From NCBI GenBank assembly GCA_947501625.1, contig CANMWN010000003.1, forward strand, positions 1 to 64,000: a DNA stretch of 64,000 nt. The letters are read 5' to 3'. Source of the DNA: an uncultured Flavobacteriaceae bacterium. GTDB lineage: Bacteria; Bacteroidota; Bacteroidia; Flavobacteriales; Flavobacteriaceae. Both the position numbers and the translations under genes were made by a program. Every line of letters begins with the position of its first letter. Within the stretch, counting starts at the first letter, position 1. The notes under the pieces were generated by a model. It saw only the letters and a program-made list of their open reading frames with translations. It did no database searches and was not told the origin of the DNA. Positions 39,535 through 43,113 of the stretch are shown here, piece by piece.

Positions 39535-39786
39535 ATGAAAAAAGGTATACACCCAGAAAATTATAGAATGATGGCATTCAAAGATATGTCAAACGGAGAC
39601 GTATTTTTAACTCGTTCAACTGCAGATTCAAAAGAAACACTAGAAGTTGACGGTGTTGAGTATCCTTTGGTGAAGATGGAGATTTCTAGAACTTCACACC
39701 CTTTCTATACAGGTAAGAAGAAATTAATTGATACGGCAGGACGTATTGATAAGTTCAAAACTAAATACGCTAAATTTAAAAAATAA
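39535..39786 (+). CDS. rpmE2: 50S ribosomal protein L31 type B
   Basis: The 83-residue ribosomal protein has the type B features [33 protein letters not shown] and VDKF-like RIDKFKTKY. It lacks the zinc-binding CxxC of type A L31, so it does not need zinc. The ATG at 39535 is chosen because the reading frame upstream is only preceded by a weak GTG at 39517 and homologues begin MKKGIHP. A terminator follows. It forms the right-hand border of conserved genes before the accessory island. Confidence 0.95.
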
Positions 39787-39842: not shown

Positions 39843-39867
39843 GGTTTTAGTATTTGATCAGCCAAAG

Positions 39868-39885
39868 GCTGAATGTGCTTCAACG
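39868..39885 (+). repeat. 18-nt direct repeat, copy A (island boundary)
   Basis: GCTGAATGTGCTTCAACG is exactly repeated at 40913-40930. CAACG at its end is inverted as CGTTG at 39901-39905, just before the stop codon of the next minus-strand gene. Confidence 0.85.
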
Positions 39886-39918
39886 CTTATTCGCTATACA
39901 CGTTGTTGTGTGGCGTTT

Positions 39919-40548
39919 TTATTTTTTTCTTGGTAAAGGTTGAATGTTCTTTTCTTTCATTCGTTTTAGGACTTCTTGGTTAATTTCTCGCATACTTTTT
40001 TCTTTCTCGATTTTGTCAAATTGGACTTTAGCATCTTCCGCCATATAGTCCTTTACTGATTTCTCCAAATATGGAATTGCCTCATCCCATTCTTTTTTGT
40101 GTCTTACACTCAACATATCAATGACAAAGGCTAAAGATTCGTAAAGCTCATTGATGTCTTTTTCAGTACTTGGCTTTCTTAATCCGTTTAATTCATTCCA
40201 CCAAGGTTTGAAATTTCCGAGTTTATCTCTGTTTACGTGAGCTAACATTAAATTCCTCATTTTCGTTAATCCGTTGTATTTTTTCAGATTCCTTATTACT
40301 GGTGCGCAAACATAAAGAGTGTCTCTTAAATTCTCGTCATCTTTAGATAATCGACTTAATATACTATACTCTTCTAGAAAAGAACAAACTTGTATAAATC
40401 CATATTTGCTGACTTTATATATCAGAAAATTTCTGTTGTCAGTTTGAATATTCTTTGTTTCTGTATAATCGAGATACATTTCAAGAAATATCCATTTTAT
40501 ATTTATAAGGCATTTTTGAAATTCAGTCAGTTCAGATTCTTTTTTCAC
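39919..40548 (-). CDS. Hypothetical protein with HEPN-like R-x5-H motif
   Basis: The 209-residue protein is not recognised as a named family. It is all-helical by appearance. MRNLMLAHVNRDK contains R98-N-x4-H104, which fits the Rx4-6H motif (with Asn after Arg) of HEPN domains, often RNases in toxin or defence systems. A basic, Lys/Arg/Glu-rich C terminus (170-209) follows. It starts with GTG at 40548; no ATG exists in-frame upstream, where an inverted-repeat element begins 30 bases away. It may be 5'-truncated by that element. The genes on either side (rpmE2, and an island of repeats) suggest a horizontally acquired accessory gene. Confidence 0.55.
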   Translation of the reverse strand: MKKESELTEFQKCLINIKWIFLEMYLDYTETKNIQTDNRNFLIYKVSKYGFIQVCSFLEEYSILSRLSKDDENLRDTLYVCAPVIRNLKKYNGLTKMRNLMLAHVNRDKLGNFKPWWNELNGLRKPSTEKDINELYESLAFVIDMLSVRHKKEWDEAIPYLEKSVKDYMAEDAKVQFDKIEKEKSMREINQEVLKRMKEKNIQPLPRKK

Positions 40549-40577
40549 TATGATTTTTGGGTTTGGTAAAATGACAC

Positions 40578-40854
40578 ACAGACCTGCTAAACGTAGTTCT
40601 GTAATTTTTGAGTAAATATAAGGAATTTGGGCAATTATTATCAGATATTAGACTTCCTATATCAATCTGATAATAATTTATCGAATAGCAAGCGAGTCTT
40701 GCGTTATTTGCCAAATTTCGATTATTGGGAGCAAAAATTGCAGAGCCAAATTATGTTTAGTAAAAGTTGGTGCATCGTTTTGGCTCGATGCCCAGCAAAG
40801 GTGATATTAATTTTAAATATCACTATACTAAATAATTTGGTTTAGCAGGTCTGT
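40578..40854. mobile_element. 277-bp non-coding element with 15-bp terminal inverted repeats
   Basis: The ends ACAGACCTGCTAAAC (40578-40592) and GTTTAGCAGGTCTGT (40840-40854) are perfect inverted copies. Inside are further hairpins: a 14-bp inverted repeat AATTATTATCAGAT / ATCTGATAATAATT (40633-40646 and 40665-40678), GCATCG/CGATGC near 40780, and GTGATATT/AATATCAC (40801-40808 and 40816-40823). No credible gene is encoded. No target-site duplication was found. It looks like a MITE-type element or a heavily folded non-coding RNA. Confidence 0.55.
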
Positions 40855-40912
40855 TGAAGCACAATCTTTTGGGATGGGAGTGCGAAGCACGAAGAAACAA
40901 AAGTTCAACTTT

Positions 40913-40930
40913 GCTGAATGTGCTTCAACG
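40913..40930 (+). repeat. 18-nt direct repeat, copy B
   Basis: GCTGAATGTGCTTCAACG is identical to 39868-39885. The 11 bases GTTGAAGCACA at 40853-40863 are the inverted form of part of it. It starts the long palindrome that follows. Confidence 0.85.
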
Positions 40931-41051
40931 TGTTTGTATAAGATTAGTTGCGTGGTTTAAGCACTAAAGTTAGCAAATAAATCACAGATAGAAAGTCCGC
41001 GAGGGCTTTCGTAAATAGGCTATTACCAGCAATTAATTTTATACGGTGTTG
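40926..41051. other. 126-nt imperfect palindrome, attC-like in shape
   Basis: CAAC (40926-40929) and GTTG (41048-41051) close the structure. The arms GTATAAGATTAGTTGC (40936-40951) and GCAATTAATTTTATAC (41029-41044) pair over 16 positions with two G-T pairs on the plus strand. A terminal hairpin GAAAGTCC-GCGA-GGGCTTTC lies at 40991-41010. It sits 13 bases beyond the stop codon of the DUF262 gene. The CAAC/GTTG ends and length resemble integron recombination sites, but the core boxes do not fully match RYYYAAC/GTTRRRY. A structured 3' UTR or non-coding RNA is an alternative. Confidence 0.5.
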
Positions 41052-41064
41052 GCATTTCGTTATT

Positions 41065-42834
41065 TTATTCCGCTGTTGTTTTTTCGTTTTCGATTTGCAA
41101 TATTTTTCCAAATTCAATAATGAGTAATTTTTCACGTTCCTCAAAAAACTCAATAAAGTTTTTAAATTCTAAATCAACATTTGGAATATTGTGAACATTT
41201 TTGAATTCATTTTGTTTGTCGTTGTTTGGATATGTTTTTTCAAGCCAAATCTTAAATTCCGTGTCTTTTTTCTCAATATTTGGGATTGCTCCAAGTAATT
41301 GAAGATTTCCAATATAGTTTAAATAGCCAATAAATGTATCTATATCATCTTCTTCAATTCCTCTTTTACGCAACTTTGTTCTTGTAAAAAGGCTTTTTGG
41401 AAAAATATGGTCTATGTGAAATTGATTATTATAGTCTAAATGTGGATATAACAATGATAAAACTGAAAAAGTGAAACCTTGTCCGTATTTGTAATAAGTT
41501 AGGTTTTCAACATCTTCGTCTGAAAACAATAATGATTTGTTAGTTCCTTTAAATTTCTCTACTATTTTGTCAAGTGGAAAAATAGTGTCATTTTCTTTTA
41601 TGATTTTACGAATTGGTCGTAATACATTATCTGGCTGACCACTAAATGCTCTTTTTACTAACGTTAAAATTAACCATTTGCGTATTTTCTCTTTATCTTC
41701 TAAATTGTTATTCGAGTCAGGATAACTGTCAGTTGCATTAATTTTATATAAATAATAGGCAATTGGAATTATTGCATTATTTGAAGTTAAGGTTTCTCTA
41801 TTATAACCAAAACTTGAAACAAGTTTTACTGCTATTCTGATTGAATCGGTTAGTTTGTCCCAATTACTCTCAATTTTAAGCATATTGGCTTTATTGAAAT
41901 TATCTACTTTAAAAGCAAAATCGCTAAAATCATTTATTACTAAACTCGATTTTAAAACAAAATCTTTATTAAAGTTAAATCCGTTTCCAATATCATTAAT
42001 TTCGTCAACAAACTTTATTATTTCTTCTCTTGCATCTTTTTCCTCCCATTGTGCTGTTGCTATTGACAATAATAAATCTGAATAACTCAAAATAGTTCCA
42101 CCACTATTAATTCTTATAAAAATGTTCAATACTTTGTCTAAAGATTGACTTTTCTCTTTGTAATAACTTATAAGTGGTGTAATGTGAATTACGTTATGTA
42201 ATTGAAATAGAGTGTTATTTGCAAAGTTTGCCTGTTCTTGAGTGTAATTTTGAAAAATTCCATTCTGAATTAGAAAACTGTTTACTTCTCCTGGTTCTTT
42301 TAAGTTTAAGATTTCTCCAACACAAAACCAATAAGAGTTTTCGTCATTCTCTTTTGCGTCTTCTTCAGTTAGAAAACGGAAATCAAATTCAAGTTCGCTA
42401 TGTTCAGAATTTGAAACTAAATTCAAATAAAGTTTTGTTTTAGGATATGCTTTATCGTTATCCCATCTTTTTCTTGGTAATTTTTCGGCAAATGTTCCTT
42501 TTAGAGCAACATAAATTGAAGTCAACCTTTGTTGACCATCTAAAATGGCAGTAATTTCTTCTTCTCCATTTACGTCTGCTTTTGAATTATGTCTATTATC
42601 TCTCTCGTGAAATTCTCGTAAAAATTCGTAAAATTTGAAGTCAGTCACATTCTCTTTTTCCACTTGCCAAAACAAAAAAGAACTAATTGGATAGTTTCTC
42701 ATTATACTATCAAAAAGTCTTTCGATTTGATAAGTGTTCCAAACAAATTCTCTTTGGATTGCTGGAAGTAAATATTTCTTTTTGTGAATGCTTTCTACTA
42801 CATCTTTAATCTTTAATGCTGTTTCGTATGCCAT
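41065..42834 (-). CDS. DUF262/HNH (DUF1524) GmrSD-type protein
   Basis: The 589-residue protein has an N-terminal DUF262 domain with YLLPAIQREFVWNTYQIERL, ISSFLFWQVE, the DGQQR nucleotide motif (99-103) and FIRINSGGTILSYSD (239-253). A C-terminal HNH-like DUF1524 region has HIDHIFPKSLF (H473, D475, H476) and YIGNLQLLGAIPN. Both halves of a GmrSD type IV restriction enzyme (which cleaves modified phage DNA) are therefore in one chain, though substrate specificity is unproven. It stands alone between the attC-like palindrome and a boundary inverted repeat, with no methylase nearby. Confidence 0.87.
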   Translation of the reverse strand: MAYETALKIKDVVESIHKKKYLLPAIQREFVWNTYQIERLFDSIMRNYPISSFLFWQVEKENVTDFKFYEFLREFHERDNRHNSKADVNGEEEITAILDGQQRLTSIYVALKGTFAEKLPRKRWDNDKAYPKTKLYLNLVSNSEHSELEFDFRFLTEEDAKENDENSYWFCVGEILNLKEPGEVNSFLIQNGIFQNYTQEQANFANNTLFQLHNVIHITPLISYYKEKSQSLDKVLNIFIRINSGGTILSYSDLLLSIATAQWEEKDAREEIIKFVDEINDIGNGFNFNKDFVLKSSLVINDFSDFAFKVDNFNKANMLKIESNWDKLTDSIRIAVKLVSSFGYNRETLTSNNAIIPIAYYLYKINATDSYPDSNNNLEDKEKIRKWLILTLVKRAFSGQPDNVLRPIRKIIKENDTIFPLDKIVEKFKGTNKSLLFSDEDVENLTYYKYGQGFTFSVLSLLYPHLDYNNQFHIDHIFPKSLFTRTKLRKRGIEEDDIDTFIGYLNYIGNLQLLGAIPNIEKKDTEFKIWLEKTYPNNDKQNEFKNVHNIPNVDLEFKNFIEFFEEREKLLIIEFGKILQIENEKTTAE

Positions 42835-43113
42835 ATTTTCTTGTTTCCTTTGCGGTCTGTTTTAATGAATGCCAACTAGTTATAAAAGTACTAAAATACT
42901 CTTTTATGGGTTTATATTTCCGGATAAAAGCACCTTTTGTTCCTGTTTACTGTTTTTATAATTTGTATAAAATCTAAAATTAGTAATAAAATAGTTGAAT
43001 TATGTTTGGAAAAAAGCCCGTCTTTTGAAAGGTGTTAAAAGGTATTACAAAAGGATTCTATCTAGTTTGTCAAAATTCTTTTGTAAATTTGATAAAGATG
43101 CCCTACCACAATT
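42835..43113. other. Gene-free stretch at the island edge
   Basis: No gene is seen. ATGCCAAC (42869-42876) is the inverted copy of GTTGGCAT (41048-41055), so the DUF262 gene is flanked by an 8-bp inverted pair. A TAAATTTG element at 43084-43091 with TTTG 14 bases upstream (43066-43069) may be the promoter of the beta-hydroxylase-like gene, although the spacing is short. The rest is AT-rich without clear structure. Confidence 0.4.

Follow-up and report, generated by a model that had tools for sequence, protein, structure and literature searches.

An integrase-less island of single-gene cassettes in a Flavobacteriaceae genome as a probable satellite of a chromosomal integron-like system

How do single accessory genes come to lie beside a conserved ribosomal protein gene, and what could have carried them there? 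This question is raised by an island at positions 39,843 to 43,113 of a stretch of 64,000 nucleotides (nt) from an uncultured Flavobacteriaceae bacterium (GenBank assembly GCA_947501625.1, contig CANMWN010000003.1, positions 1 to 64,000 of the forward strand; hereafter the window), in which a HEPN-like gene and a DUF262 gene lie next to rpmE2. The initial annotation had described a cassette-like accessory island with putative defence genes between rpmE2 and a beta-hydroxylase-like gene, marked by an 18-nt direct repeat, and had proposed that genes arrive here as exchangeable units. Comparisons within the source genome (2.66 Mb in 11 contigs), with its relatives and across the phylum support this proposal. 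Known here from sequence alone, the island is very probably an integrase-less satellite of a chromosomal integron-like system with swappable gene cassettes, a system that is integron-like in every sequence feature tested except its integrase, which fails the tests for the integron integrase IntI.

In the mechanism proposed, cassettes consisting of one gene and a folded hairpin site, attC, would be excised as circles and inserted either at a primary site, attI, or next to another attC, through crossover at G^TT. Most likely this is done in trans by a tyrosine recombinase of the Xer/IntI type whose gene adjoins the main array on a different contig; like IntI, it would read attC as a folded bottom strand, but without the IntI-specific insert, and in the Flavobacteriaceae enzyme an N-terminal HARP/DRD-like domain may help to read structured DNA instead.

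Read on the minus strand, the island comprises an attI copy, the DUF262 cassette, a gene-less cassette (cassette B), the HEPN-like cassette and a 16-nt remnant of B. A typical cassette end in this system runs through R'' (...AAC), about 3 nt, L'' (e.g. GTGTATAAT), a variable stem, L' (e.g. ATCATACAC), about 6 nt and CG^TT. The parts of the island and its rpmE2 flank, including open reading frames (ORFs) with lengths in amino acids (aa), are as follows:

42876..42957, minus strand: attI-like site, a copy of the 3' end of the integrase gene and the attI of this genome's integron, lacking the remaining integrase; putative crossover G^TT at 42876/42875.
40929..42875, minus strand: gene cassette 1 (DUF262/GmrSD-like gene plus attC), with its start GTTGGCATT complementary to its own R'' AATGCCAAC.
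41065..42834, minus strand: ORF of 589 aa, DUF262/GmrSD-like, PADLOC candidate defence family HEC-05 (by Pfam and PADLOC).
40921..41058 (model-match coordinates), plus strand (here the bottom strand): attC of cassette 1, matched by attC model R1 at 130 bits, E=1e-24, the site having belonged to the R1 training set.
40579..40928, minus strand: gene-less cassette B, 350 nt, starting TTGAAGCACATTCAGC and ending GTTTAGCAGGTCTG, with sharp identity edges on both sides.
40913..40930, plus strand: 18-nt repeat, second copy, the start of cassette B plus the two preceding bases.
39884..40578, minus strand: gene cassette 2 (HEPN-like gene plus degenerate attC), lying between cassette B and the CG^TT junction that follows.
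39919..40548, minus strand: ORF of 209 aa, HEPN-like by motif only (ORF call, without family match).
39884..39918, minus strand: shortened attC of cassette 2, read from the sequence, with R'' CCACACAAC and L'' GTGTATA retained and most of the hairpin gone.
39868..39885, plus strand: 18-nt repeat, first copy, the junction followed by the opening 16 nt of a cassette B that has presumably been lost.
39535..39786, plus strand: rpmE2 (ribosomal protein L31; Pfam Ribosomal_L31), conserved flank of the variable site.

The repeat that had first drawn attention is real: GCTGAATGTGCTTCAACG occurs exactly at 39868-39885 and 40913-40930, whereas dinucleotide-shuffled windows (n=100, up to 3 mismatches) held 0.03 matches on average and in no case two. 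With up to 2 mismatches, the source genome contains eight exact and two one-mismatch copies, against zero for a reversed-pattern control. It is not, however, a bare repeat but the edge of a 350-bp block, cassette B, whose first 16 nt plus two bases make up the 18 nt. The whole block stands at the second site (40579-40928), and just those 16 nt at the first. Both island genes lie on the minus strand, in the common orientation originally reported, and CAACG/CGTTG-type inverted motifs are indeed present, but the pair by the second repeat reads CCAACACCG/CGGTGTTGG. The DUF262 label is correct (Pfam GmrSD_N, E=1.3e-31, and GmrSD_C, E=2.6e-6; PADLOC HEC-05, E=3e-233), while the HEPN label stands as far as an Rx5H motif (RNLMLAH) recognised by eye, the protein having no match in Pfam, PADLOC or NCBIfam. 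The attI copy measures 82 nt and is 93.9% identical to the stretch of locus L015, on another contig, that ends at the first cassette junction, and the attC of cassette 1 folds to -14.5 kcal/mol on the bottom strand versus -9.7 on the top. In cassette 2, the start TGTGTC fits the complement of its own R'' only loosely, and the shortened attC gave no match to R1 in the window. As for the recombining enzyme, the reported lack of an integrase is true of the window, where no PF00589 recombinase was found, but not of the genome, which carries six elsewhere, one of them adjoining five copies of the repeat.

The main array lies beside this last recombinase. On contig C4, the five repeat copies are clustered within 5.1 kb directly after the gene for a 397-aa tyrosine recombinase (L015:4035-5228; PF00589, E=1.9e-36), the first cassette beginning 28 nt past its stop codon, and the order is attI, B, c1, B, c2, B, c3, B, c4, B, i.e. 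five copies of B and four gene cassettes; an Rfam scan of this array returned no match. Past its last B, at L015:10677-10688, comes a repeat of the initial 12 nt of B before the sequence diverges, possibly a remnant of a lost copy like that at the left end of the window island. Cassette B occurs nine times at full length in the genome, and alignment shows six of the copies to be identical and the other three to reach 99.7%; its own start GTTGAAGCACA is complementary to the internal TGTGCTTCAAC, and it contains no convincing gene, a 72-aa ORF lying antisense and being the same in all copies. The base before it is G in eight copies and A in one, and TT follows directly in seven, as at a cassette junction. 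In view of these junction counts, B as an insertion element at unrelated targets was rejected.

Cassettes also occur in the source genome away from any PF00589 recombinase (L016-L018), including one beside mutY that carries a 564-aa retron/defence-type reverse transcriptase and is followed by B (L016:3012-4706), a cassette B without any cassette gene (L017), and an attC match adjoining a gene (L018). In line with the initial expectation, the 18-nt motif recurs beside other variable genes of this genome. A second site motif, AACTTTACNTATCGNACGATA...TTATCTTAACCA^TT, lies upstream of cassettes outside arrays at L016 2700-2800 (the reverse transcriptase cassette) and L017 4560-4610 (B, in a diverged form), and also before the rpmE2 cassettes of G012 and G004 (L136, L137), with seven places in the source genome. 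It might serve as a further landing site, or represent a half-site that bears a promoter.

The junctions and hairpins share one anatomy across loci. By eye, TATAAC-N-AGTT follows the integrase gene at 11 of 17 loci, with one-base variants at four and absence at L022 and L023; it is the putative attI at which the first cassette would join, and it overlaps the 3' end of the integrase gene. At the other end of the unit, the first six bases of a cassette after GTT are complementary to its own R'' at all six positions in 161 of 200 rows (one region present twice having been dropped), and 95 distinct start/R'' pairs average 5.13 of 6, against 2.01 for permuted partners (highest 2.45 in 1000), the trace expected of a circular intermediate closed at G^TT. 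Three or fewer matches were found in 28 rows: 17 are due to a mis-set later GTT, the earlier one giving 5 or 6 of 6, three lie in the source-genome array, where the model leaves B unmarked as a separate cassette, and eight are unexplained. Arrays without cassette B show the same attC anatomy in many genera.

Sites were collected with a strict attC finder, which returned 61 against 10.4 expected from first-order resampled sequence, and then with a covariance model; a looser finder was dropped, its yield being barely above that from shuffled sequence. In 46 hand-curated sites, a few near-copies included and 15 of the 61 strict matches dropped by eye, the bottom strand is the more stable in every case (mean -18.1 vs -15.3 kcal/mol, p=3.5e-9), because top-strand A.C oppositions, numbering 89 against 8 C.A among the non-pairing ones, turn into G.T wobbles on the bottom strand. 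The covariance model R1 was trained on 38 of the 46. Among 38 aligned bottom strands, 21 consensus pairs are predicted, 12 of them with compensatory change on both sides, and G.T wobbles are kept at columns 10-138 (38/38), 22-129 (37/38) and 29-124 (38/38). IntI recombines attC via the bottom strand, and by analogy the flavobacterial sites would be recombined through the same strand.

A further comparison concerns where these sites lie relative to the recombinase. When 39 named loci were oriented by their integrase match, all 79 attC matches (R1, E up to 0.05; many of them training sites) fell downstream, in 23 loci and 163,133 bases searched, versus none in 328,693 upstream bases, and 77 were on the expected strand, the other two being weak mirror matches of counted sites. 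Across 99 relatives, with integrase presence called at E up to about 1e-61, a threshold chosen after seeing the gap to Xer, attC matches are present in 57/59 integrase-bearing genomes and in 12/40 of the rest. Within Flavobacteriaceae, where 56 of 60 genomes have attC matches, at least three sites are present in 48/52 genomes with the integrase vs 4/8 without (p=0.008).

The same chromosomal site can also be compared between genomes. Both flanks had been expected to be conserved; this held for rpmE2, found in 13 of 14 genomes of the genus, and failed for the beta-hydroxylase gene, found in one of 14. The downstream side of rpmE2 is present in 12 of the 13 (L115 is cut off there). Three genomes have an attC match at this place, each with a different gene, as had been predicted for exchangeable units: the DUF262 and HEPN-like genes in the source genome, a 213-aa gene in G012 and a 262-aa gene in G004. 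In G013 and G009 rpmE2 directly adjoins pdhC, and the seven others have no attC match there. The DUF262 cassette has a relative inside an integrase-linked array of another species (L091/L023, metagenome-assembled genome Flavobacteriaceae BB35), with 94.6% protein and 87.6% DNA identity over 1831 nt, the match running from the G^TT junction at 42876 as far as 41047, a single base beyond R''. Further along, the two attC interiors differ (L091:1578-1773 vs window 40929-41047), as if interiors were swappable between cassettes. Between trkH and mpl, an interval that includes the integrase, G012 has 15.7 kb where G000 has 7.5 kb. The stretches searched in related genomes contain no relative, at E<1e-6, of any of five array proteins of G000. 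Altogether, these comparisons support the view that single genes arrive at the island as exchangeable units.

Cassette numbers can be large, with 89 rows measured in a 74-kb stretch of the genus relative G006 and 51 in G027. In G006 (L087-L090), 40 rows belong to one gene-less family of about 420-460 nt, 86% identical and scattered among gene cassettes, possibly a selfish or regulatory cassette. Two further cassette genes, L018:5241-6029 and L110:2041-2826 (G004, beside rpmE2), share their first 49 residues at 82% and then differ. Among the 25 commonest families listed for 139 cassette proteins, PADLOC gave single matches including HEC-05, PtuA, SoFic and HerA, and Pfam gave four ParE toxins and four transposase-type rve domains. 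Judged by their PADLOC names, certain cassettes resemble phage defence genes (HEC-05, retron-type reverse transcriptase, PtuA, SoFic, HerA).

The recombinase is where the system departs from known integrons. The source-genome enzyme, whose nearest named relative is from Lutibacter sp. NORP37 (90% identity), matches the IntI integron integrase profile TIGR02249 at 194.7 bits in two stretches, below the curated cut-off of 265, and the XerA profile at 218.8 bits against a cut-off of 220. Its closest solved structures are XerA and archaeal Xer (5HXY, 4A8E), with a catalytic domain lacking the insert; it has 21 residues where IntI4 (2A3V) has 64, and the IntI insert of about 41 residues is missing. 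The spacing from KGxKxR to HxLRH is 58-59 residues in 35 of 35 members vs 100 in 12 IntI, these being the ones with both motifs in order among 21 IntI loci tried, several of which were badly extracted. In the tree, 15 IntI group at 100/99 with none of the 35 members inside; the sister of that clade consists of two XerA-like rows (L053, L055; 99/95), and deeper branching is unsure. This tree was built without the wrongly extracted row of L078 (G013:C258:2-922), the sole IntI above cut-off among 60 relatives and possibly a contaminant.

Most aligned members also carry some 75-95 extra N-terminal residues, in which W45 is invariant and F27 near-invariant. Pfam HARP (PF07443) was matched in two of six proteins scanned, at E=1.5e-4 (21.6 bits, L056) and E=0.44 (10.6 bits, the source enzyme), the gathering score being 25, and a structural model of this part (mean pLDDT 80) retrieved with Foldseek the XPB damage-recognition region (prob 0.97, E=0.03) and the SMARCAL1 HARP domain (prob 0.33, E=0.4). 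From such modelling, the N-terminal part weakly resembles a HARP/DRD domain.

Three other accounts of the island deserve weighing. The repeats could represent an element resembling a miniature inverted-repeat transposable element or an insertion sequence that inserts beside accessory genes, which would then not be cassettes at all, and the shortness of B, its near-identity in nine places and its presence at L017 without any cassette gene would fit such an element. B nevertheless shares with the gene cassettes both the G^TT point of joining and the start/R'' complementarity, the DUF262 cassette abuts attI with no B before it, and the shared attC anatomy of B-less arrays in many genera speaks the same way; we regard this account as most improbable. 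Another places the work on the host XerC/XerD pair, as in Xer-exploiting elements, with the adjacent integrase being incidental. Almost every one of these genomes has Xer-type enzymes, and the adjacent integrase itself lies near XerA, but genomes that have Xer-type matches and lack the integrase mostly lack attC (matches in 12/40, vs 57/59 with it), and attI overlaps the 3' end of the adjacent integrase gene, which leaves a very small chance for this alternative.

Furthermore, the cassettes could belong to ordinary IntI integrons, or be what is left of them without an integrase (CALIN), and be served by a canonical IntI located elsewhere. TIGR02249 does match the recombinase at the score given above, and a canonical IntI above cut-off is present in 84 of 296 phylum genomes surveyed. 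None of those 84 is among the Flavobacteriaceae genomes listed, however; a canonical IntI above 265 bits was found in one of 60 relatives searched and not in the source genome, and the arrays abut the insert-less integrase. Across the same 296 genomes, with at most 11 attC candidates scored in each, attC matches follow the profile of this integrase (A1-type; p=1e-10) and not canonical IntI (p=0.68): they occur in 38/69 genomes with the A1-type only and in 17/26 with both, versus 8/58 with IntI only, the last figure being what this explanation can claim in its favour. It strikes us as very unlikely.

Several observations nonetheless weigh against a cassette system run by the adjacent integrase. 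Of the 25 named loci that extend 1 kb or more downstream, L051-L055 lack any attC match, and these five all have distant integrases. In the phylum, 31 of 143 genomes with neither integrase type still have attC matches, and 40 of 95 with the A1-type have none, mismatches that may stem from the 11-candidate scoring, assembly gaps, lone or relict sites, or false matches. Four relatives (G010, G011, G032, G050) carry at least 13 attC matches with no integrase in the assembly, two of them rated 99% complete, and among the 59 integrase-bearing relatives eight have no more than two sites. The sites used to build the attC model came from beside these integrases, and several of the 99 relatives are the named-locus genomes themselves, so that the relative and locus counts are not independent of the model. 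The HARP assignment is weak as well, with no Foldseek match below E=0.001 and the best Pfam match below the curated cut-off. In addition, three loci from another Bacteroidota family (L150-L152) have the same attC type as the Flavobacteriaceae arrays beside an integrase ORF of 280-319 aa without the N-terminal part, and thus the domain is not needed in general; an essential role for it, once considered, was downgraded in light of these arrays. Their arrays run divergent from the integrase, the orientation typical of classical integrons.

Beyond the satellite reading of the island, a broader one can be put forward, and we judge it on balance probable: that these loci represent a second integron lineage, widespread in Bacteroidota, in which folded single-stranded attC is handled without the I2 insert, the innovation credited with having made integrons possible, its role being taken over by the G.T-wobble fold and, in Flavobacteriaceae, by the HARP-like domain. 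If the system works as its anatomy suggests, integrons would be common in flavobacteria, some of them at superintegron scale, and would escape searches that require IntI; a recombinase lacking a part thought essential for integrons may explain why the system was overlooked. One account holds that it was the acquisition of the I2 helix, absent from Xer proteins, that brought integrases to single-strand recombination (PMC7790495), and the present arrays make testable whether folded single-strand recombination needs that helix, as proposed there for the origin of integrons.

These results can be set beside earlier surveys. For Bacteroidetes proper, IntegronFinder 2.0 lists just one complete integron, that of Salinibacter (PMC9024848), an earlier survey chose integrases by the additional domain or IntI patch (PMC2426708), and reviews name Bacteroidota among integron-bearing phyla (PMC8618304, PMC9668308). 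In the open-access text covered, with most subscription journals and bioRxiv outside its scope and no priority claimed, no description of flavobacterial or IntI-insert-less integrons was found.

Among known systems, the closest likeness is to sedentary chromosomal integrons of the Vibrio superintegron type with IntI. Shared features are a tyrosine recombinase with adjacent attI, tandem single-gene cassettes in one orientation, attC hairpins with R''/L''/L'/R' arms, unpaired spacers, a G^TT junction and a better bottom-strand fold, as well as gene-less cassettes and arrays of up to 74 kb. The differences lie in an integrase that lacks the IntI insert and falls outside the IntI clade, in an R box of about 9 nt where that of IntI integrons has 7, in the conserved bottom-strand G.T wobbles, and in the Flavobacteriaceae integrase being co-directional with its cassettes. 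Such an arrangement is also described for Treponema integrons, and promoter-bearing gene-less cassettes for Vibrio superintegrons, in PMC11014356. Like those of Vibrio, the gene-less cassettes here have no clear ORF and stand between gene cassettes, but one family is repeated near-identically (B, nine copies) or many times over (the 40 rows of G006). With XerA and archaeal Xer (5HXY, 4A8E; NF040815) the enzyme shares a catalytic domain without insert, whereas it adjoins attI and cassette arrays and, in most aligned members, bears the extra N-terminal domain. Finally, the window island and the cassettes of L016-L018 resemble CALIN in lying away from any PF00589 recombinase, but the island retains an attI copy, and the same elements stand in the integrase-bearing array of its own genome.

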